NCBI GenBank assembly: GCA_003132865.1
Contig: PKYZ01000804.1
Coordinates: forward strand, 291 to 10,655
DNA length: 10,365 nt
From: Bryobacterales bacterium
Lineage (GTDB): Bacteria > Acidobacteriota > Terriglobia > Bryobacterales > Bryobacteraceae
Direction of reading: 5' to 3'
The position numbers and the translations under genes were made by a program. This document shows positions 1,367 to 10,236 of the stretch, one piece after another. The notes beneath the pieces are model-generated. The model was not told the DNA's origin. It worked only from the letters and a program-made list of their open reading frames with translations, and did no database searches. Positions within the stretch are counted from its first letter, which is position 1. Each line of letters begins with the position of its first letter.

Positions 1367-3199
1367 ATGACCGCTCGCTTACGTTCATGGTTTACCCTGA
1401 CCCTTCTTTGTTGCGCGGCGGCGTGCGCGCAAGACGATTCGCCGTTCACCAAGACCGAAGCGATGATTCCGGTGCGCGACGGCGTGAAGCTGCACACCGT
1501 GATCTTCGCGCCACGCGACGCGCGCGAGCGCCTGCCCATCCTGCTGGAACGCACGCCTTACGGTGCGATGGCGGATGAGAAAGACTTGCGGGCGCGCTAT
1601 GCGCACCTGATCGCCGATGGGTACATCTTCGCATTCCAGGATATCCGCGGACGCTTCACGTCCGAGGGCCAGTTCGTGATGCAGCGGCAGGTGCGCGACA
1701 AGCGCGATCCCAAAGCCATCGACGAAAGCACCGATACCTACGACACCATCCAATGGCTGCTCGACAACGTGAAGGGTCACAACGGACGCGCCGGCATCCT
1801 GGGGATTTCCTACGGCGGCTGGCTGACTACCATGGCCTTGCTCGATCCGCACCCCGCGCTGAAGGCGGTCTCCGAGCAAGCCTCTCCCGCCGACATGTTC
1901 CTGGGCGACGACTTCCATCATAACGGCGCGTTCCGGCTCAGTTATGGGTTCGAGTATGCCGCGCTGCTGGAAACATCCAAAGAGACCAACACCAACTTCG
2001 CGTTCGACCGCGCCGACACCTATCAGTGGTATCTCACTCTGGGCGCGCTGCCGAATGCCGATGAGAACTACTTTCATGGCAAGATACCCACCTGGAACGA
2101 CTTCGTCAACCACCCGAACTACGACCAGTTCTGGCAGAAGCAGGCGTTCGCGCCGTACATTGGTGCAGGCATTGGCGCAGTGAGGGTTCCGAATCTGAAC
2201 GTGGCAGGCTGGTGGGACCAGGAAGATTTCTACGGTCCGGTGAAGATCTACGAGCTGTTCGAAAAGAACGATCCCGATCGTCTGAACTACCTGGTGGCCG
2301 GCCCTTGGAATCATGGCGGTTGGGCGCACCGCGACGGCAGCAAACTTGGCGAGATTTCTTTCGACAGTAACACGAGCAAGTACTTCCGCACGCACATCGA
2401 AGCGCCCTGGTTCGCTTACTGGCTGAAAGACAAAGGCGCGCGCGACTTTCCCGCAGCCATGGTCTTTCAGACCGGGTCGAATCGCTGGGAGAAGTACGAT
2501 GCGTGGCCGCCGCGCAATGCCCGGAACCGCAATCTGTATCTGCGCGAGAGTGGCGCGCTGTCTTTCGATTCGCCCGCGGACGCCGGCGAGGCGTTCGACA
2601 GTTACATCTCCGATCCGGCGCACCCAGTGCCCTACCGGCATCGGCCGATCAGCCCGACCTATCCGGGCGGCGGTTGGCCTGTGTGGCTGGTGGAGGATCA
2701 GCGGTTCGTGGACAACCGCCCCGACGTGCTGACATGGGAGACCGAGCCATTGAAGGACGATCTGAAGATCGCCGGTGATATTGCCGCCGAGTTGTACTGC
2801 TCGACCACGGGCACGGATAGCGACTGGGTCGCGAAGCTGATCGACGTTTATCCGGAGTTCAATCCGGACGATCGGGCGCTCGACGGATACGAACTCATGA
2901 TCGCGGACGAGATCCTGCGCGGGCGTTTTCGCGAGAGCTTCGAGCATCCCAAGGCCATCGTGCCCAATGAGGTCACGCCATACCGCATCGATCTGCACAG
3001 CAACGATCACGCGTTCCTGAAGGGGCATCGCATCATGGTGCAAGTGCAGAGCACGTGGTTTCCGCTCTACGACCGCAACCCACAAACGTTCGTCGAGAAC
3101 ATCTTCAAGGCGCATGCGGCCGATTACAAGGCGGCTATGCAGAAGGTATTTCGCTCGAAGACCTACCCGTCGCACGTGGTCCTGCCGGTGGCGCCGTAA
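1367..3199 (+). CDS. Secreted CocE/NonD-family hydrolase (peptidase S15-like, alpha-amino acid ester hydrolase type)
   Basis: This is a 610-residue alpha/beta hydrolase of the X-Pro dipeptidyl-peptidase (S15)/CocE superfamily, whose members cleave esters or amides of acyl and amino-acid compounds. Residues 1-21 form a signal peptide with a probable cleavage after A-C-A; AAAC at 17-20 is a weak alternative lipobox. The catalytic triad is visible: Ser148 in GISYGG, Asp284 in GWWDQED and His316 in GPWNHGG. The S-D and D-H spacings (136 and 32) closely match those of the alpha-amino acid ester hydrolases (about 133 and 32), and the WDQED wording is typical of them. The C-terminal half (from about 380) is the jelly-roll domain of this family, including the GDIAAELYCSTTGTDSDWVA region. 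ATG 1367 is preceded by AGGTGG and yields an intact signal peptide. The stop overlaps the next gene's ATG by one base. The natural substrate is not predictable. Confidence 0.9.
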   Translation: MTARLRSWFTLTLLCCAAACAQDDSPFTKTEAMIPVRDGVKLHTVIFAPRDARERLPILLERTPYGAMADEKDLRARYAHLIADGYIFAFQDIRGRFTSEGQFVMQRQVRDKRDPKAIDESTDTYDTIQWLLDNVKGHNGRAGILGISYGGWLTTMALLDPHPALKAVSEQASPADMFLGDDFHHNGAFRLSYGFEYAALLETSKETNTNFAFDRADTYQWYLTLGALPNADENYFHGKIPTWNDFVNHPNYDQFWQKQAFAPYIGAGIGAVRVPNLNVAGWWDQEDFYGPVKIYELFEKNDPDRLNYLVAGPWNHGGWAHRDGSKLGEISFDSNTSKYFRTHIEAPWFAYWLKDKGARDFPAAMVFQTGSNRWEKYDAWPPRNARNRNLYLRESGALSFDSPADAGEAFDSYISDPAHPVPYRHRPISPTYPGGGWPVWLVEDQRFVDNRPDVLTWETEPLKDDLKIAGDIAAELYCSTTGTDSDWVAKLIDVYPEFNPDDRALDGYELMIADEILRGRFRESFEHPKAIVPNEVTPYRIDLHSNDHAFLKGHRIMVQVQSTWFPLYDRNPQTFVENIFKAHAADYKAAMQKVFRSKTYPSHVVLPVAP

Positions 3200-4054: not shown

Positions 4055-5653
4055 ATGACCCCACAATCGCCATCCCGAACCACCCTCGCCGCACTAGCCG
4101 TCGCCGCCTGCTTCGGGCTCCCATCCGCGGCGCACGCGGCCCAGACTTGCGAAACCCTGAATAAGCTGGACCTCCCCGCCACCTCCATCACCCGCGCGGA
4201 GTCCGTGCCGGCCGGCAGTTTCACGCCGCCTGCCGGCAAGGCCCTGTCCAACCTGCCGGCCTTCTGCCGCGTTGCCGGACTCATCAAGCCATCGTCCGAC
4301 TCCGATATCCAGTTCGAGGTCTGGATGCCGGCCTCCAACTGGAACGGCAAGTTCCAAGGCGTGGGCAACGGCGGCTTCGCCGGCTCCATCGGCTACGACC
4401 AAATGGGCAACGCCGTCGCGCACAACTACGCCACCGCCGCCACAGACACCGGTCACCATGCAGGCGGGACGGATGCCGCTTGGGCGCTCGATCACCCCGA
4501 GAAGATTGCCGACTTCGGCCATCGCGCCATTCACGAAACGGCCGTGAAAGCCAAGGCCATCCTGCACGCCTTCTACGGCGAGGACGCCAAGCGCTCGTAC
4601 TTCAGCTCCTGCTCCAACGGCGGCCGCCAGGCGCTGATGGAAGCCCAACGCTACCCCGAGGATTACGATGGCATCATCGCGGGCGCGCCCGCCAACTATT
4701 GGACGCACCTGCTGGCCAACGCCGCTTGGGACAATCTGGCTCTGCTCGGCGAAAAGGACAGCTACATTCCGCCGAAGAAACTGCCCGCCATCCAATCCGC
4801 CGCCCTGGCCGCTTGCGACGCGATGGATGGCGTGAAGGATGGCGTCATCGAAGATCCGTCGCGCTGCCACTTCGATCCCGCCGTTCTCCTATGCAAGGCC
4901 GCCGAGTCCGATAGTTGCTTGACCGCGCCGCAAGTGGCCGCGTTGAAGAAGCTGTACGCGGGCGGGCGCACCTCGCACGGCCAACTCTTCCCCGGTTACG
5001 CCCCGGGCGGCGAGGCCGAACCGGGCGGCTGGACCGTCTGGATCACCGGACCTTCCCCCGAGCACAGCCTCATGTACGCCTTCAGCACGCAGTTCTTCAA
5101 AAACATGGTGTTCGACAACGCCGCCTGGGACTACCACACCTTCAACACCGACCGCGACACCAAGGCCGCCGACGACAAGCAAACCCGCAACCTTAATGCC
5201 ACCGACCCCGACCTCGGCGCCTTCCGCAAACGCGGCGGCAAGCTGATCCTGTATCACGGATGGAGCGACGCCGCCATCGCGGCCCAGAACACCATCGATT
5301 ACTACGGTAACGTTGCCGCGAAGATGGGCGCGCAACAGACGGCCACCTTCGTCCGGCTCTTCATGGTGCCGGGTATGCAACATTGCGGCGGCGGCTCCGG
5401 CACCAACACTTTCGGCCAGTTTAGCGTCGCTTCCGGCGATGCCGATCGCGACATGGATGCCGCACTGGAGCGGTGGGTTGAAAAAGGCGTCGCGCCCGAG
5501 CGCATCGTCGCGGCCAAGCGCAAGAGCGACCTGGATCCCGCGAGCGCCATCGTTCGCACCCGCCCCTTGTGCGCGTATCCAATGGTTGCGCGCTACGAGG
5601 GCAGCGGCAGCACCGATGATGCCGCCAACTTCGTGTGTGCCAAACATGACTAA
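4055..5653 (+). CDS. Secreted tannase/feruloyl esterase-family hydrolase
   Basis: This is a 532-residue member of the tannase/feruloyl esterase family (PF07519), whose enzymes release aromatic acids such as gallate, ferulate or terephthalate from esters, usually outside the cytoplasm. The signal peptide ends AHA after residue 28. The CS-D-HC arrangement typical of the family is visible: Cys186-Ser187 in SCSNGG, Asp405 in HGWSD and His443-Cys444 in MQHC. The two cysteines are expected to form the disulfide that joins nucleophile and histidine. The lid carries a calcium site, with D255, D258, V260, D262 and V264 in CDAMDGVKDGVIEDP; this spacing equals that known for MHETase. The lid (S187 to D405, 218 residues) is shorter than in MHETase. 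The start has no strong ribosome site, but the signal peptide begins naturally there. A 67-base gap precedes it, with a weak TATATT box at 4031-4036. Family is certain; substrate unknown. Confidence 0.93.
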   Translation: MTPQSPSRTTLAALAVAACFGLPSAAHAAQTCETLNKLDLPATSITRAESVPAGSFTPPAGKALSNLPAFCRVAGLIKPSSDSDIQFEVWMPASNWNGKFQGVGNGGFAGSIGYDQMGNAVAHNYATAATDTGHHAGGTDAAWALDHPEKIADFGHRAIHETAVKAKAILHAFYGEDAKRSYFSSCSNGGRQALMEAQRYPEDYDGIIAGAPANYWTHLLANAAWDNLALLGEKDSYIPPKKLPAIQSAALAACDAMDGVKDGVIEDPSRCHFDPAVLLCKAAESDSCLTAPQVAALKKLYAGGRTSHGQLFPGYAPGGEAEPGGWTVWITGPSPEHSLMYAFSTQFFKNMVFDNAAWDYHTFNTDRDTKAADDKQTRNLNATDPDLGAFRKRGGKLILYHGWSDAAIAAQNTIDYYGNVAAKMGAQQTATFVRLFMVPGMQHCGGGSGTNTFGQFSVASGDADRDMDAALERWVEKGVAPERIVAAKRKSDLDPASAIVRTRPLCAYPMVARYEGSGSTDDAANFVCAKHD

Positions 5654-5711: not shown

Positions 5712-8048
5712 ATGACGAGCCCGAAGCCACGCACTTTCTCCCCCGGCAGGGCCGCCGCCCTCACGCTGGTCTTCCTTGTGGCTGTTTCCTGGTGGAGCGT
5801 ACTGCAGGTGAGCCCGCCGCCGGCAGTCCCCGCTACTGCCCCGCCGACGGATTTCTCCGCGGCGCGCGCCCTGGCACATTTGCGGGTGTTTGCCCGTGTG
5901 CCGCACCCCGTCGGCACCGCGGCCCACGATACCGTGCGCGACTACATTGTCGAGCAGCTCTCTACGTTGGGCGTGCAGCCGGAGGTGCAAACTGCTACCG
6001 TGGTCAGCCCGCGTTGGGGTTCTCCCTACAACGCCGCCACCGTATACAACGTCCTTGCCCGATTGCCCGGCGCTGCCAGCACCAAAGCCGTGATGCTCGC
6101 CGGCCACTATGATTCCGTCTCCGCCGGCCCCGGCGCCAGCGACGACGGCCATGCCGTGGCCCTGGAACTCGAAACCCTGCGCGCCTTGCTGGCCGGCCCG
6201 CGCCTGCGCAACGACGTCGTGTTCCTGTTCACCGACAGCGAAGAATCCGGCTCGCTGGGGGCTGAGGGCTTTCTGGAGCATCACCCTTTGGCCAAACAAA
6301 TCGGCCTGGTTATGAACTTCGAAGCCCGCGGCACCAGCGGCCCGGCCATGATGTTTGAAACCAGCGAGGGCAACGGCAAGATCGTGCGCGAATTCGCCGC
6401 CGCCGCGCCTCATCCGGTGACTTCCTCGCTCAGCTACGAAGCCTACAAGCTGCTCCCCAACGATACCGACCTCACGTTCTTCAAGCAGGGCGGACTCGCC
6501 GGACTGGGCTTCGCCTATGTCAACGATGTGGCCTACTATCACACGCAGTATGACGATGTGGCGCACCTCGATCCGCGCAGCCTGCAGCAGGAGGGCGCTT
6601 ACGCGCTGGCCCTTGCGCGGCGCTTTGGCAACCTCGATCTCAGCGATCTGAAGAGCGCCGACGCCACTTACTTCGTCCTCCCGTTCTTCGGTTGCATCGT
6701 CTATCCGGTGAGCTGGAGCGTGCCGCTGGCTGGCTTCGCCGCGCTGCTGTTTGCCGCCGTCGTGGCGCTCGGCATCTGGAAAGGCCGGCTCACGCTGGGC
6801 GGAACGCTGGCGGCTTTTTTCGGATTTCTGCTGGCGATCGTAATCGCCAGCGCCGCTGTGGCGGTGATGTGGTCGCTCGCCAAAGGCCAGGCTGCCGGAT
6901 TCTGGCAAGCCTTCGCCGGAGATCCTTATCATCCCGGCGTGTATCGCCTGGCGAGCGTCGCATTGGCCGTGGCCGTGACCGCGGCGCTCTTTGCGCTATT
7001 CCAAAGGCGTGCGCGCGTGCTGAACCTGTGGGCCGGCGCGTTGCTCTGCTGGCTGCTGCTCGCGCTGGCCACCAGCGTCTACATACCCGGAGCGACCTAC
7101 CTGTTTCTATGGCCGATGCTCTTCTCGACCATTGCGCTGAGCATTTTCGCCATGCGCCCGGAGCGCGGCGCGACCGTCGGCAGCGTCATCCTGCTGTGTG
7201 GCTTCGCGCTGCCCGGACTGATAATGATGGCGCCCACCATCGAGCTGCTGTTCCAATCCCTGACGATGCGCATGGCCTTCGTGGGCGCATTCGCCACCGT
7301 GCTCCTGTTGGGCCTGCTGATTCCCTGTCTGAACCTGATCGCCGCCGCCGGCCGTTGGCGCCTCCCCGGCGCTGCCGCGCTGGTCTCGGCCGGCTGCCTG
7401 ATCGCGGGAGCGTCCATGTCCGGCTTCAACCGCGACAACCCGCGCACCAACAGCATCTATTACGGCCTCGACACCGACACCGGCAAAGCCGCCTGGTTCA
7501 GCCTCGATTTGCAGGAAGACGACTGGACCGCGCATTACCTGGGCGCCAACCCGCAGCGCTCCACCTTGTCGCCATTCGTGCCGTTCATGCATTGGCAATA
7601 CCTGATTCACGAAGCGCCTGCCGTGGCCTTGGCTGCGCCGCTGATCGAGCGGCTCGACGGCGCGCCCGATACGCTGCACCTGCGCGTGAGCTCGCCCCGC
7701 CAGGCCCCGCGCATGTACCTCTACGGCGACGAGCGCAACCCGGTGCTGGAGGCCACAGTGGACGGCACGCCCATCGACGCCGCCAAGGCTTACGCCGGTT
7801 TGAAGCCCGGCCAGAAAGCGTACGCCTTCCGCATGCAGCGCTGGGGACTCTGCTATTTCAACGTGCCGAAGCAGGGCATCGAGCTGCGTATGCGCTTGCG
7901 AGACCCCGCCGCGGGTTATCGCATGGAGGTGGTCGATCAATCTTACGGCATCGCCGGCCTGCCCGGCGTCGCGCCGCGTCCCGATAGCATGATCCCGTTC
8001 CCGCTGATGATGGATTCCGTGTGGGTGCGGAAGCAGTACACTTTTTAA
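5712..8048 (+). CDS. Membrane-anchored M28-family zinc aminopeptidase with multi-pass C-terminal region
   Basis: The protein has 778 residues. A hydrophobic segment at about 13-33 is an uncleaved signal or anchor. Residues 50-305 form the M28 metallopeptidase domain with two zinc sites: His132 in GHYDS, bridging Asp144 in GASDDG, the Glu177 base and Glu178 ligand in DSEESG, Glu204 in NFEARG, and His277 in YYHTQYD. Roughly eight hydrophobic segments follow between about 334 and 570, then a soluble C-terminal region of about 200 residues with no domain I recognise. This layout resembles the Fxna/ERMP1 type, with the peptidase domain expected on the outer face. An aminopeptidase role is inferred from the family. 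The ribosome site GAGG supports the start. Only one base separates its stop from the following peroxiredoxin-like gene, so the two are probably co-translated. It is the longest gene in the window and appears intact. Confidence 0.92.
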   Translation: MTSPKPRTFSPGRAAALTLVFLVAVSWWSVLQVSPPPAVPATAPPTDFSAARALAHLRVFARVPHPVGTAAHDTVRDYIVEQLSTLGVQPEVQTATVVSPRWGSPYNAATVYNVLARLPGAASTKAVMLAGHYDSVSAGPGASDDGHAVALELETLRALLAGPRLRNDVVFLFTDSEESGSLGAEGFLEHHPLAKQIGLVMNFEARGTSGPAMMFETSEGNGKIVREFAAAAPHPVTSSLSYEAYKLLPNDTDLTFFKQGGLAGLGFAYVNDVAYYHTQYDDVAHLDPRSLQQEGAYALALARRFGNLDLSDLKSADATYFVLPFFGCIVYPVSWSVPLAGFAALLFAAVVALGIWKGRLTLGGTLAAFFGFLLAIVIASAAVAVMWSLAKGQAAGFWQAFAGDPYHPGVYRLASVALAVAVTAALFALFQRRARVLNLWAGALLCWLLLALATSVYIPGATYLFLWPMLFSTIALSIFAMRPERGATVGSVILLCGFALPGLIMMAPTIELLFQSLTMRMAFVGAFATVLLLGLLIPCLNLIAAAGRWRLPGAAALVSAGCLIAGASMSGFNRDNPRTNSIYYGLDTDTGKAAWFSLDLQEDDWTAHYLGANPQRSTLSPFVPFMHWQYLIHEAPAVALAAPLIERLDGAPDTLHLRVSSPRQAPRMYLYGDERNPVLEATVDGTPIDAAKAYAGLKPGQKAYAFRMQRWGLCYFNVPKQGIELRMRLRDPAAGYRMEVVDQSYGIAGLPGVAPRPDSMIPFPLMMDSVWVRKQYTF

Positions 8049-8049
8049 G

Positions 8050-8571
8050 ATGCTCGCCGAATCGCTTGCGACTATCGTGCTGCCCGATGCGGATGGCAGC
8101 CAGATCCGCCTGGGCTCGCTTTGGGAGCGGCAGCCGGCCGTGGTGGTCTTCCTGCGCCACTACGGTTGAATCTTCTGCCGCGAGCACGTCGCGCGGTTGC
8201 GCGCACACGAGCGGGCCTTCCGCGAGCGGGGCGCCAACCTGGCGGCCATCGGACTCGGCGACGCGAACTACGCGCGCCAGTTCCGGGAGGACACCGGCAT
8301 CGCGTTCCCGCTGCTGATCGACGAGCAACGCCAGGCGTACCGCGCCGCTGGCCTGCGCAACGCGAACCTTCTGCACATGCTCCGGAGCGAGAACAAGACG
8401 GCCCGCGCCCGCGCCCGCTCCGCCGGCCACCGCCAGCATAAGCTGGGGCAGAATCCGTTTCAGCTTGGGGGCAGCTTCGTCTTCGGGCCGGGCAACGTGG
8501 ACCGGTACGCGCACGTCAGCCGCACGTTTGGGGATAATGCGTCCGTCGAAAATCTGTTCGCCGCGCTTTGA
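8050..8571 (+). CDS. AhpC/TSA_2 peroxiredoxin-like protein, candidate selenoprotein (in-frame TGA at codon 40)
   Basis: Read through one TGA, this frame gives a 173-residue thioredoxin-fold protein of the AhpC-TSA_2 (PF13911, PRXL2/SelU-related) family. Motifs run end to end: VVVFLRHYG, then the TGA, then IFCREHVARLRAHE, GANLAAIGLGD, FPLLIDEQRQAYRAAGLR, QLGGSFVFGPGNVDRYAHVSRTFGDNA and VENLFAAL. Relatives have Cys at the TGA position (GCIFC), so the TGA replaces the N-terminal redox Cys and gives U40-x-x-C43. No other lesion is present. Known family: vertebrate SelU carries Sec in this domain. I infer Sec insertion; the alternative is a single-base nonsense change (TGC to TGA) or a base-calling error. 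If TGA is a stop, only a 39-residue stub is made, and a TTG at 8197 is the first fallback start, which lacks the active site. The ATG follows the peptidase stop by one base, with no clear ribosome site, suggesting coupling. Probable role: thiol redox or peroxide defence. Confidence 0.75.
8167..8169 (+). other. Candidate selenocysteine codon (TGA)
   Basis: This in-frame TGA is codon 40 of the AhpC/TSA_2 gene. It stands where relatives encode the first cysteine of the active-site CxxC; the second cysteine is TGC at 8176-8178. The frame is open on both sides with family homology, which fits Sec decoding better than random decay. The rest of the window uses TGA as a normal stop, so general reassignment of the codon is unlikely. 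Confidence 0.6.
8184..8212 (+). promoter_or_regulatory. Candidate bacterial SECIS hairpin downstream of the TGA
   Basis: A five-pair GC stem, 8191-8195 with 8200-8204, closes a GUUG tetraloop at 8196-8199. After a small asymmetric internal loop, the pairs CGU/ACG (8187-8189 with 8207-8209) extend it, and GC/GC (8184-8185 with 8211-8212) may extend it further. The loop starts 26 bases after the TGA and has G in its first position followed by U. This fits the usual bacterial SECIS spacing and the loop G/U read by SelB. An alternative CCGCG/CGCGG hairpin (8178-8182 with 8192-8196) overlaps it. GC-rich coding DNA gives such hairpins by chance, so this is supportive only. Confidence 0.4.
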
Positions 8572-8574
8572 CAA

Positions 8575-9192
8575 TTACGCACTCGGAACGGTTCTAGACG
8601 CCGCCGATACAACATCGGCCCAAGTTTGCTTATCGAGTGCCGCCGCCTGCAAATCGACGAGCTGACTTCGGTAATATGCAAAGCTCTGAAAGATCTGCAA
8701 AGGTGACGGCACCGGGTCAAGGAAGTCTTCTTGCGTCCTGAGCCAGGCAGACACCTCGCGGATAATGGATGGCACCGATGAGTCGTGTCTCCCAGGATCG
8801 AAGCCGGCGAGATCGGAAATGAAGCTCTGATAGGCATAGCCGTCCGGCACGAGGGCGAGCCATCGGTGCGGTCGACGCGAACCCTCGCGTTCAAAACGAA
8901 AGGCTGCCGCCATGCCCAGTTCAAGGGGCATATTGAACCTCGCGAGATTGCCGCCGTCCTCTCCTGTCGAGCGCGACAGGTCGTGAATGGAGTATTTTGA
9001 CCCTGCGATGGCGCCCAGAATTCTAGAGAAGCGCGGTTCCGGGTCCCCCTCCGTCTCCCTTGCACTTCGAGGCAGGAGGCGGTGAGCGGCCACGGAGAAG
9101 ACTATAGCGAGCATAAGATCCTGGTAGTCCCGGTCGAAAGGACAATTGATGAAAACGGACTTCTCGTACGCCGACGGCGATCGGACCGCCAT
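8575..9192 (-). CDS. TIR/deoxyribosyltransferase-like Rossmannoid protein (hypothetical family)
   Basis: This 205-residue protein carries motifs of a widespread uncharacterised family: SVFINCPFD (12-20) then DYQDLMLAIVFSV, RFSRILGAIAGSKYSIHDLSRS (54-75), ARFNMPLELGMAAAF (84-98) and YQSFISDLAG. The order (an N-terminal strand ending in CPFD, an IHDLSR strand, then a Glu in PLELG at position 91) resembles the active-site layout of nucleoside 2-deoxyribosyltransferases and TIR-like enzymes, where a Glu before G-x-A acts on the N-glycosidic bond. That fold assignment is my inference from motif shape; biochemical activity is not known to me. The start ATG directly abuts the stop of the TIR gene (TAAATG), so the two are surely co-translated. 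Its stop lies 3 bases from the stop of the converging peroxiredoxin-like gene. A nucleotide- or NAD-directed effector or sensor in the same defence-like operon is plausible. Confidence 0.72.
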   Translation of the reverse strand: MAVRSPSAYEKSVFINCPFDRDYQDLMLAIVFSVAAHRLLPRSARETEGDPEPRFSRILGAIAGSKYSIHDLSRSTGEDGGNLARFNMPLELGMAAAFRFEREGSRRPHRWLALVPDGYAYQSFISDLAGFDPGRHDSSVPSIIREVSAWLRTQEDFLDPVPSPLQIFQSFAYYRSQLVDLQAAALDKQTWADVVSAASRTVPSA

Positions 9193-9777
9193 TTATGGTT
9201 TGGCCTCGCCGCCCGATCCCTCTTCTTTCAGGGCGAGAGCGTAATCCTGGATCTCTCTTAGACGTTCCTTCTGTTCGGCCCGCGTCTGTTCGTCGTGTGT
9301 GTGATCGAGGGCTTCCGCAGGATGCTGCACCAGATACTGCAAGTCGTCAATCACGGCGTCAAAGTTTGTCGTACAGATTGCCTTTCGGTGCCGCAGGAAG
9401 GGAGGCAAGTCCTTAGATGCGATGCCATGTGCGGCGATCACTGGCACCAAAGGCTTCGTCGAGTCCCAATCGTTTCGTAGGAATGCGCGCCACTCGGCCT
9501 GCAGTTGAGGATTTGCGGAAAAACCGGCTCCAAGCAAGAAAACGAATCCGTCTGCCTGGGCGCTTTCCCGATCCACTAGCCGGTTCCACTCTTCCGCCGA
9601 AGGTACATCCAGCCTTGACCACACTTGGATATTGTGACGCCGCAACGCCGCCTCGAGTTGAGCGGCCAATTCTGCGTCACGTTGAGCAAAGGAGATGAAA
9701 AGGCGCATATTAGAACCATCTTCAGTTTCGCACAAAGATCCGCCTGAAAGACGGCTGGTCGCGAGTTGTGCGCTCAC
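9193..9777 (-). CDS. TIR-domain protein, probable NADase effector
   Basis: The frame encodes 194 residues. A TIR domain begins at MRLFISFAQRDAELAAQLEAAL (from residue 24), followed by IQVW, a loop region around RLDVPSAEEW, ADGFVFLLGAGFSANP and QLQAEWRAFL, with Glu95 in the place of the catalytic Glu of NAD+-cleaving TIR domains, then KPLVPVI. A charged helical tail follows. No membrane segment or other sensor domain is visible. Two starts are possible. GTG at 9777 overlaps the stop of the RES gene (GTGA) and adds 23 residues without family character. ATG at 9708 begins right at the first strand and may be the real start, giving 171 residues. The gene abuts the Rossmannoid gene downstream. Bacterial TIR proteins commonly deplete NAD+ in anti-phage systems; that role here is inferred from family and neighbours. 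Confidence 0.82.
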   Translation of the reverse strand: MSAQLATSRLSGGSLCETEDGSNMRLFISFAQRDAELAAQLEAALRRHNIQVWSRLDVPSAEEWNRLVDRESAQADGFVFLLGAGFSANPQLQAEWRAFLRNDWDSTKPLVPVIAAHGIASKDLPPFLRHRKAICTTNFDAVIDDLQYLVQHPAEALDHTHDEQTRAEQKERLREIQDYALALKEEGSGGEAKP

Positions 9778-10236
9778 TTTTTCATCTGCGCGCGACCCAA
9801 TCGATCATCGAAGTAGAACGGCTCCGGACTGAAGAACCGCATCCTCTGGAAGTCCGGATGATGCGGATTCACTATGTGGTTGCACTCTCTCGGAATCACC
9901 ACCGAGGGGACCACAAGGACAACCGTGGTTAGGCTCTTCGCCCACTCTGTACCGATATCACGGGTGTCATTCGTGGGCTCTCCGGCGTCCCAGTTTGGCG
10001 GCAGTGTTTCGATGGGTCGCGTCGTTACCGGGAGATCGTCGGGTAATTCGAGTGGAGTAATGCATAGTCGGCGCCCAACTCGTCGGCATTCGCGAGCACC
10101 TCGAGAGCACAAAGTGCCCGGCTCGCCGCTGTGTAGATAACAGACGTTCCTTTGTGATTCGAGCGGCCGCTGTAAAGGCTTGCACCCAATCCGTCTTGGC
10201 TGGGTACCGGGCGCTCCCGAGCCGATAGACGATCAT
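9774..10236 (-). pseudogene. RES-family toxin gene disrupted by two frameshifts
   Basis: RES toxins degrade NAD+ (MbcT) or ADP-ribosylate targets (ParT) and are held by a MbcA/ParS antitoxin. Here the family sequence is spread over three frames. MIVYRLGSARYP reads from the ATG at 10236. A shift near 10195-10206 leads to DGLGASLYSGRSNHKGTS, then VIYTAASRALCALEVLANAD. A second shift near 10050-10066 leads to LELPDDLPV, LPPNWDAGEP, VVLVVPSVVIPRECNHIVNP and the end at 9774. The signature Arg, Tyr and Glu keep the family spacing (10 and 11 residues), and the Ser of VPS is present, but the usual GRWN reads GRSN. An open frame at 9774-10112 covers only the C-terminal part. The ATG abuts the antitoxin stop and the final stop overlaps the TIR start. 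Either it is a recent pseudogene or there are base errors near the contig end; retained residues and perfect junctions make errors a real possibility. Confidence 0.75.

Follow-up and report, generated by a model that had tools for sequence, protein, structure and literature searches.

Introduction

SelL proteins carry a UxxU motif with two selenocysteine (Sec) residues and occur in aquatic animals and marine bacteria. The original SelL paper reportedly described a UxxU diselenide in marine bacteria and fish, together with SelL-like forms having Cys in place of one or both Sec. SelU, on the other hand, has a UxxC motif in some vertebrates, and the SelU-type selenoproteins of eukaryotes have their SECIS element in the 3' UTR. 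A passage of PMC2398784 names SelL among the families with Sec in bacteria as well as in eukaryotes. An AhpC/TSA family selenoprotein of pfam13911 with UxxS appears in a table of PMC9312934, and cd02970 with UxxS in tables of PMC13188914, the text of which contains no word beginning with SelL. For the Acidobacteria, three selenoprotein families were tabulated in 2006 (PMC1794560), and three known selenoprotein genes are tabulated for one Acidobacteriota genome (PMC12013277).

Here we describe a gene with an in-frame TGA in a 10,365-nucleotide stretch of DNA from a Bryobacterales bacterium (the window). Its product belongs to a UxxC subfamily for which no paper was found by title or start of abstract in a literature composed mostly of papers outside subscription; that NCBI curators know the family is clear from their profile model NF040769.

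Reading frame and protein family

The gene and its predicted active site are as follows.

8050..8571, + strand: predicted SelL-related/PRXL2-like selenoprotein frame; ATG start, 173 residues, Sec at 40, terminal TGA 8569-8571
8167..8169, + strand: UGA, predicted to be recoded (Sec40), first position of UxxC; TGA in 48/50 sequences of at least 45% identity; aligns with Cys44 of human PGFS
8176..8178, + strand: Cys43 (TGC), second residue of UxxC; column invariant in a 25-row alignment; aligns with Cys47 of human PGFS

The TGA at 8167-8169 (codon 40) is the sole internal stop of the frame 8050-8571, with the ATG 39 codons 5' of it and 133 codons 3' of it. It stands in the context LRHYG(TGA)IFCREHVA, where relatives carry the first Cys of GCxFC, and several full-length relatives at about 65-73% identity have GCIFCR at the motif. 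An earlier note on this DNA had described the TGA as the only interruption of the gene, placed at the first Cys of GCxFC so as to give UxxC, with homology and frame intact on both sides. The reading of the frame and the Cys of full-length relatives agree with the first of these statements, and the profile scores and the purifying selection found before and after the TGA agree with the second.

For profile scoring of the full product the TGA codon was translated as Cys. Scores above the curated cut-offs were obtained for PF13911 AhpC-TSA_2 (62 bits, cut-off 27), PF00578 (54.9 bits, cut-off 26), PF08534 (35.7 bits, cut-off 26.6) and, over residues 10-172, NF040769 SelL-related redox protein (125.9, cut-off 120). 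The designation SelU-like AhpC/TSA_2 in the earlier note is right in that the protein falls inside PF13911, where SelU is placed as well, but the best name is "SelL-related", from the NF040769 model. The protein resembles SelL in passing the NF040769 cut-off and in being a thioredoxin-fold redox protein; it differs from SelL proper in that residue 43 is TGC, so that the motif is UxxC and not UxxU. The Sec protein of pfam13911/cd02970 in print is likewise bacterial and of the same Pfam family, but has UxxS, and can be likened to the present protein at the Pfam-family level only. Prx-like thiol:disulfide oxidoreductases (UxxC/UxxU) and ResA-like proteins have the thioredoxin fold with UxxC or CxxC in common with it; ResA was a secondary PDB match, but with the NCBIfam ResA model, whose cut-off is 170, the score was 24.

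Among proteins of solved structure, sequence and fold both point to human prostamide/prostaglandin F synthase (PGFS, also named PRXL2B) as the best match, with TM-scores of 0.83/0.88 to an AF2 model computed from the 25-row alignment (mean pLDDT 94.1). Residue 40 immediately precedes helix 41-52 in the model, and Sec40/Cys43 align with Cys44/Cys47 of PGFS, the positions of the PF13911 CxxC-type motif. Set against PRXL2/SelU/PGFS, the window protein shares the PF13911 match and the position of the redox pair, but it is only 22-25% identical to PGFS, is bacterial, and would have its SECIS within the coding region. We class the product as a thioredoxin-fold redox enzyme with UxxC, akin to PRXL2, SelL and SelU, and predict that it is cytosolic. 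We also observed a distant relative (L119, genome G251) with two in-frame TGAs at the UxxU spacing of SelL proper and a 7-bp AGUU hairpin.

Conservation of the in-frame UGA

Homologous loci were collected from GTDB species genomes with the patterns PFQLGGSF and GIxFPLL[IV]D[EA], both lying clear of the UGA, giving 54 loci. The site is covered in 53 sequences including the window (L048 and L051 do not reach it): TGA in 49, GGA in one, TGC in one, and unrelated codons in L052 and L053, which are at 22% identity; L054, with 25% identity, has TGA too. Among the 50 sequences with at least 45% identity, window included, the codon is TGA in 48, GGA in L017 and TGC in L047, which favours the selenoprotein reading of the earlier note, where sharing of the TGA by relatives had been proposed as a check. 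Following the TGA, 45 of the 48 frames reach a stop 133-143 codons on with no further early stop and one (L036) runs off its contig; the other two have frameshifts, in L010 near codon 143 and in L046 just after the UGA. As to scattered nonsense and frameshift changes in close relatives, which the earlier note held would speak against its reading, the 45 intact frames are on its side, but of the two frameshifts one is in the closest relative. A separate set of 396 genomes from the phylum included 20 with a match at E 1e-25 or better, at 21 places, and at least one TGA lies inside 20 of these 21; L117 has a TAG besides the TGA, and L108, the sole place without a stop, has Cys.

The closest relative, L010, comes from a Bryobacterales draft genome. 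Its protein is 86% identical over 145 residues, and its DNA is 86.8% identical over 7733-8571, a range that includes the end of the upstream M28 peptidase gene. Ka/Ks between the window and L010, calculated with a Nei-Gojobori script, was 0.105 for the 39 codons before the UGA and 0.152 for 100 codons after it, the latter equal to that of the M28 peptidase piece (0.152). These ratios indicate that both sides of the UGA are under purifying selection and, to judge from the alignments, the sharing of the TGA exceeds chance and is not random decay.

A 99-row tree, in which several long branches and L046 with its frameshift are included, places Cys forms here and there between Sec forms; it requires 15 changes, at least seven of them forced by well-supported branches. 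Sec and Cys thus appear to replace each other at this site, a replacement known in other Sec families. Gly occupies the Sec position in L017 (GGA, 10115-10117) and in the database protein P0014, and Arg in P0010. L017 retains the hairpin described below, and its genome all four Sec parts, which suggests that Sec was lost recently or that there is an error, perhaps of assembly. Five sequences labelled Planctomycetota, Deltaproteobacteria or Acidimicrobiia (L019, L028, L041, L043, L046) fall among acidobacterial rows of the tree; horizontal transfer, mislabelled bins and contaminating contigs are alternative accounts of their placement.

A SECIS-like hairpin inside the gene

A hairpin that the earlier note had not described follows the UGA.

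8190..8203, + strand: SECIS-like hairpin; stem CGCGC 8190-8194 / GCGCG 8199-8203, loop GGUU 8195-8198, 25 nt after the UGA

In the window it reads CGCGC-GGUU-GCGCG, with five pairs; most relatives have UCGCGC-AGUU-GCGCGA, and the window lacks the two outermost pairs of the stem seen in relatives. Codon choice after the UGA was compared with the rest of the same genes in 47 genes, L046 being dropped from the hairpin counts because of its frameshift. Leu is TTG in 46/47 against 12.8% elsewhere, Ala GCG in 46/47 against 31%, Gln CAG in 45/45 against 70%, Val GTC in 32/36 against 40%, and Arg CGC in 40/44 against 53%. The nearly fixed codons are those at +5 and +7 to +11 after the UGA, and the bases of +7 to +12 form the hairpin; His at +6 is unbiased and +2 to +4 and +12 are weakly biased. 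Binomial figures for this bias ignore shared descent. Glu at +5 (8182-8184 in the window) is GAG in 41/44 against 51% elsewhere, though it lies outside the hairpin; a lower stem or some other constraint may perhaps account for this.

The core four-pair stem is present in 46 of 50 sequences (the 47 genes plus L076, L077 and L107; it fails in L015, L018, L026 and L036) against 9.6% of 20,000 synonymous recodings, and stem and loop together occur in 1.7% of 20,000 such recodings. Pairing in register was found in 296 of 357 cells, against at most 199 with slid partners, and in the 18 distant UGA homologues in 96 of 126 cells against at most 80. For covariation we used 60 sequences, the 50 and those 10 of the 18 distant UGA homologues whose hairpin keeps the register and has a loop of 4 nt; because these 10 were picked for having it, the count leans towards the hairpin. 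Changes on both sides were seen for pairs 22-39 (5), 23-38 (3), 24-37 (5), 25-36 (1) and 26-35 (2), that is, for five of the seven pairs, and the inner pairs 27-34 and 28-33 showed no compensatory change in these 60 sequences. Pair 22-39 is formed in only 19/60. A first count over 68 UGA sequences had given changes in all seven pairs, partly from displaced hairpins (L096, L099, L100, L113), and was discarded; the recount also leaves out L112, L114, L115 and L118, and the five-pair result is the one used.

Variant hairpins include CUCACGC-AGUU-GCGUGAG (L085), GCGGUGC-AGGU-GCAUCGC (L109) and GCGGCGC-AGUU-GCGCCGC (L119). The other 8 of the 18 distant UGA homologues have a hairpin whose first two loop bases include G, placed elsewhere or re-formed: shifted by one base with loop AGUUA in L112 and L115, with loop CGGGCU in L114 and L118, and moved upstream in L113, L096, L099 and L100. 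None of the 18 Cys-form sequences (16 class-sample paralogues, L108 and L047) has an AGUU, GGUU or AGGU loop, and 14 of the 18 have some hairpin under a looser rule. AGUU-loop hairpins were also noticed in two other Prx-like groups of the class sample with an in-frame TGA (L080, L085, L092, motif GUxFY, and L096, L099, L100, motif WUxFC), in the second of which the hairpin lies 16 nt after the UGA; the AGUU loop looks like a local SECIS style common to these groups.

Published bSECIS rules call for a loop of 3-9 nt, a stem of 4-16 bp, G in the first two loop bases, a distance of 16-37 nt and an MFE of at most -7.5 (PMC13188914). The window hairpin falls within these limits (GGUU, 5 bp, 25 nt; -9.7 kcal/mol for an 18-nt piece, -7.5 for the 14-nt hairpin alone), but 64% of synonymous recodings pass the rules without the energy rule, so that they are weak evidence alone. 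When 66 nt of the window were folded, the hairpin was not in the minimum-energy structure (z-score 0.16), and 8.4% of 4000 synonymous recodings of the window are equally stable over nt 22-39. Rfam gave one match in the window, far below its gathering score and away from the gene. What carries the case for a selenoprotein is the stem, together with the fixed codons, the conservation of the UGA and the Sec machinery.

Selenocysteine machinery in relatives' genomes

The Sec machinery was sought in the 50 genomes of L001-L050, with tRNA-Sec counted at 62 bits or more. A cut-off of 47 bits was passed in 47/50 of these genomes but also in 5/14 control genomes, and matches of 52 bits or less were therefore not counted. 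By this measure tRNA-Sec is present in 44/50; selA passes its cut-off in 47, selB in 44 and selD in 43. All four parts were found in 36 genomes, three in 9, two in 3 (G013, G015, G033), one in one (G049, selA) and none in one; the shortfalls in G049, G013, G015 and G033 probably reflect incomplete drafts. The genome without any part, G047, is also the sole one of the 50 whose copy has Cys. The anticodon of tRNA-Sec was TCA in 12/12 loci scanned with ARAGORN, and the selD frame itself has one in-frame TGA in 35 of the 43 genomes. The earlier note had suggested a search for this machinery; with at least three of selA, selB, selD and tRNA-Sec in 45/50 genomes, the search as run on relatives favours Sec.

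The genome of the closest relative, G010, has all four parts and a TGA in selD, from which we infer that the window organism would possess the machinery and insert Sec as well. Among 200 genomes of G010's class, selB is over its cut-off in 146, including 8/8 with a strong family match; presence in all 8 adds little because the base rate is 73%.

Database relatives and alternative readings of the UGA

A search of about 5.8 billion proteins gave 3161 matches, of which the best 120 were examined. Among these 120, 89 are fragments: 67 start 3' of FC (66 and P0067) and 22 start about at the UGA with FC kept. The remaining 31 are full-length, 23 with Cys, 6 with Trp, 1 with Arg and 1 with Gly at the Sec position. 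The Trp entries are P0004, P0007, P0013, P0015, P0022 and P0024; five keep FC, and P0024 has FS, its second Cys being replaced by Ser. Fragments are most often 124 residues long (44/89), and 65/89 fragments start exactly at a TTG codon matching 8197, which in the window is the following.

8197..8199, + strand: Leu TTG lying partly within the SECIS loop; used as a start codon it would yield a fragment of 124 residues, 8197-8571, which is among the listed ORFs

Many relatives are thus headless in the databases because gene finders take the UGA as a stop, although the TGA upstream of the fragments was seen only in relatives for which DNA was fetched. Truncation by gene callers with loss of the active site, as predicted in the earlier note, is in keeping with these 89 fragments. 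Phage records gave no match, and plasmid records gave three matches at 28-32% identity.

The habit of gene callers of ending at the TGA, together with the frameshifts in two relatives, one of them the closest, is what could be said for a true stop, either in a pseudogene or through a sequencing error in a Cys-coding gene. We give this very little credence: in 48/50 sequences from separate genome records the codon is TGA, never TAA or TAG, purifying selection acts on both sides of it, and 45/48 TGA frames continue to a stop 133-143 codons later. It is also highly improbable that the TGA ends a short peptide and that a separate 124-residue protein is initiated internally at TTG 8197, the TTG being conserved as a start. 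The near invariance of the TTG (46/47) and the 65/89 fragments that begin there are compatible with such a start, but adjacent synonymous sites are fixed as well, in a stem pattern. What is more, distant UGA relatives have TTA (L112, L115), CTG (L114, L118) or TTC (L113) there, or GTG, itself a possible start, in L109 and L117, with the hairpin kept or moved; and the internal product would be without UxxC, while the best 120 matches include 23 full-length Cys relatives.

Decoding of the UGA as some residue other than Sec, by Trp insertion or suppressor read-through, seems to us extremely unlikely. The six full-length proteins with Trp would point that way, but they are most simply explained as gene calls in which TGA was read as Trp; the usual residue in full-length relatives among the best 120 is Cys (23/31), the tRNA-Sec anticodon is TCA in all 12 loci scanned, and a SECIS-like hairpin would be needless. 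All three explanations were rejected on this evidence, and it is all but certain that the in-frame UGA specifies an active-site selenocysteine.

Genomic neighbourhood

The genes around the selenoprotein gene in the window are listed below.

3-701, upstream: outer membrane efflux gene
595-1260, - strand, upstream: RraA-like gene
1367-3199, upstream: S15-type hydrolase
4055-5653, upstream: tannase/feruloyl esterase
5712-8048, upstream: M28 peptidase gene; the selenoprotein gene begins 2 bases past its stop
8575-9192, - strand: 205-residue protein without Pfam match
9193-9777, - strand: TIR_2 domain protein (PF13676, 55 bits; weak PADLOC SAVED_TIR match, 23 bits)
9774-10112, - strand: RES-domain ORF (32.6 bits, C-terminal part of the profile)

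The upstream neighbourhood is ordinary, and the genes at 8575-10112, downstream of the selenoprotein gene, form a possible defence or toxin-antitoxin island. By eye, a TIR-looking ORF also lies downstream in L010. No conserved operon partner was found: no neighbour cluster within 3.5 kb was common to more than 3 of the 50 loci, many of which have short flanks, the exception being a group of ORFs on the opposite strand of the selenoprotein gene, in 19/50 loci.

Discussion

The earlier note had proposed a selenoprotein from the position of the TGA; the conserved TGA, the Sec machinery of relatives and the constraint on both sides now support that proposal, and the hairpin is added to it. What the sequences show is the frame, a UGA conserved in relatives, compensatory changes in the hairpin, selection before and after the UGA, and the relatives' Sec machinery, and we are highly confident that this is a genuine bacterial selenoprotein gene, in which SelB and Sec-tRNA would decode the UGA at 8167-8169 by way of the hairpin at 8190-8203 to give a UxxC thioredoxin-fold protein. 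SelB carrying Sec-tRNA would bind the hairpin, and decoding of the UGA as selenocysteine would yield the 173-residue protein, with UxxC (Sec40, Cys43) at the N-terminal end of a helix. Judging from CxxC family members, the protein most likely alternates between a reduced selenol/thiol pair and an Se-S bond. The pair may reduce a peroxide or a disulfide, with thioredoxin or some similar donor restoring the reduced state; in chemical terms this would probably be thiol/selenol-disulfide or peroxide reduction, with substrate and reductant suggested by the same comparison.

This kind of protein is itself already known, and the UxxC subfamily is apparently widespread and often misannotated. We think it probable that there is a UxxC SelL/PRXL2-like subfamily, centred on Acidobacteriota and found across the phylum, with repeated exchange of Sec and Cys and a near-invariant AGUU-tetraloop SECIS shared with other acidobacterial Prx-like selenoproteins, and that it has escaped notice because gene callers begin at the UUG in its SECIS loop, giving 124-residue headless entries. 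Its interest lies in this breadth, in the nearly invariant SECIS and in the systematic misannotation. The SECIS consensus (AGUU loop, 5-7 bp stem) could help to find more members, and, as Sec, Cys, Gly and Arg all occur naturally at one position, the advantage of Sec over Cys can be put to the test. With selB in 146 of the 200 class genomes, Sec decoding looks common in the class, and selenium use in the Acidobacteriota is suggested to extend to a redox family in which Sec has scarcely been annotated.
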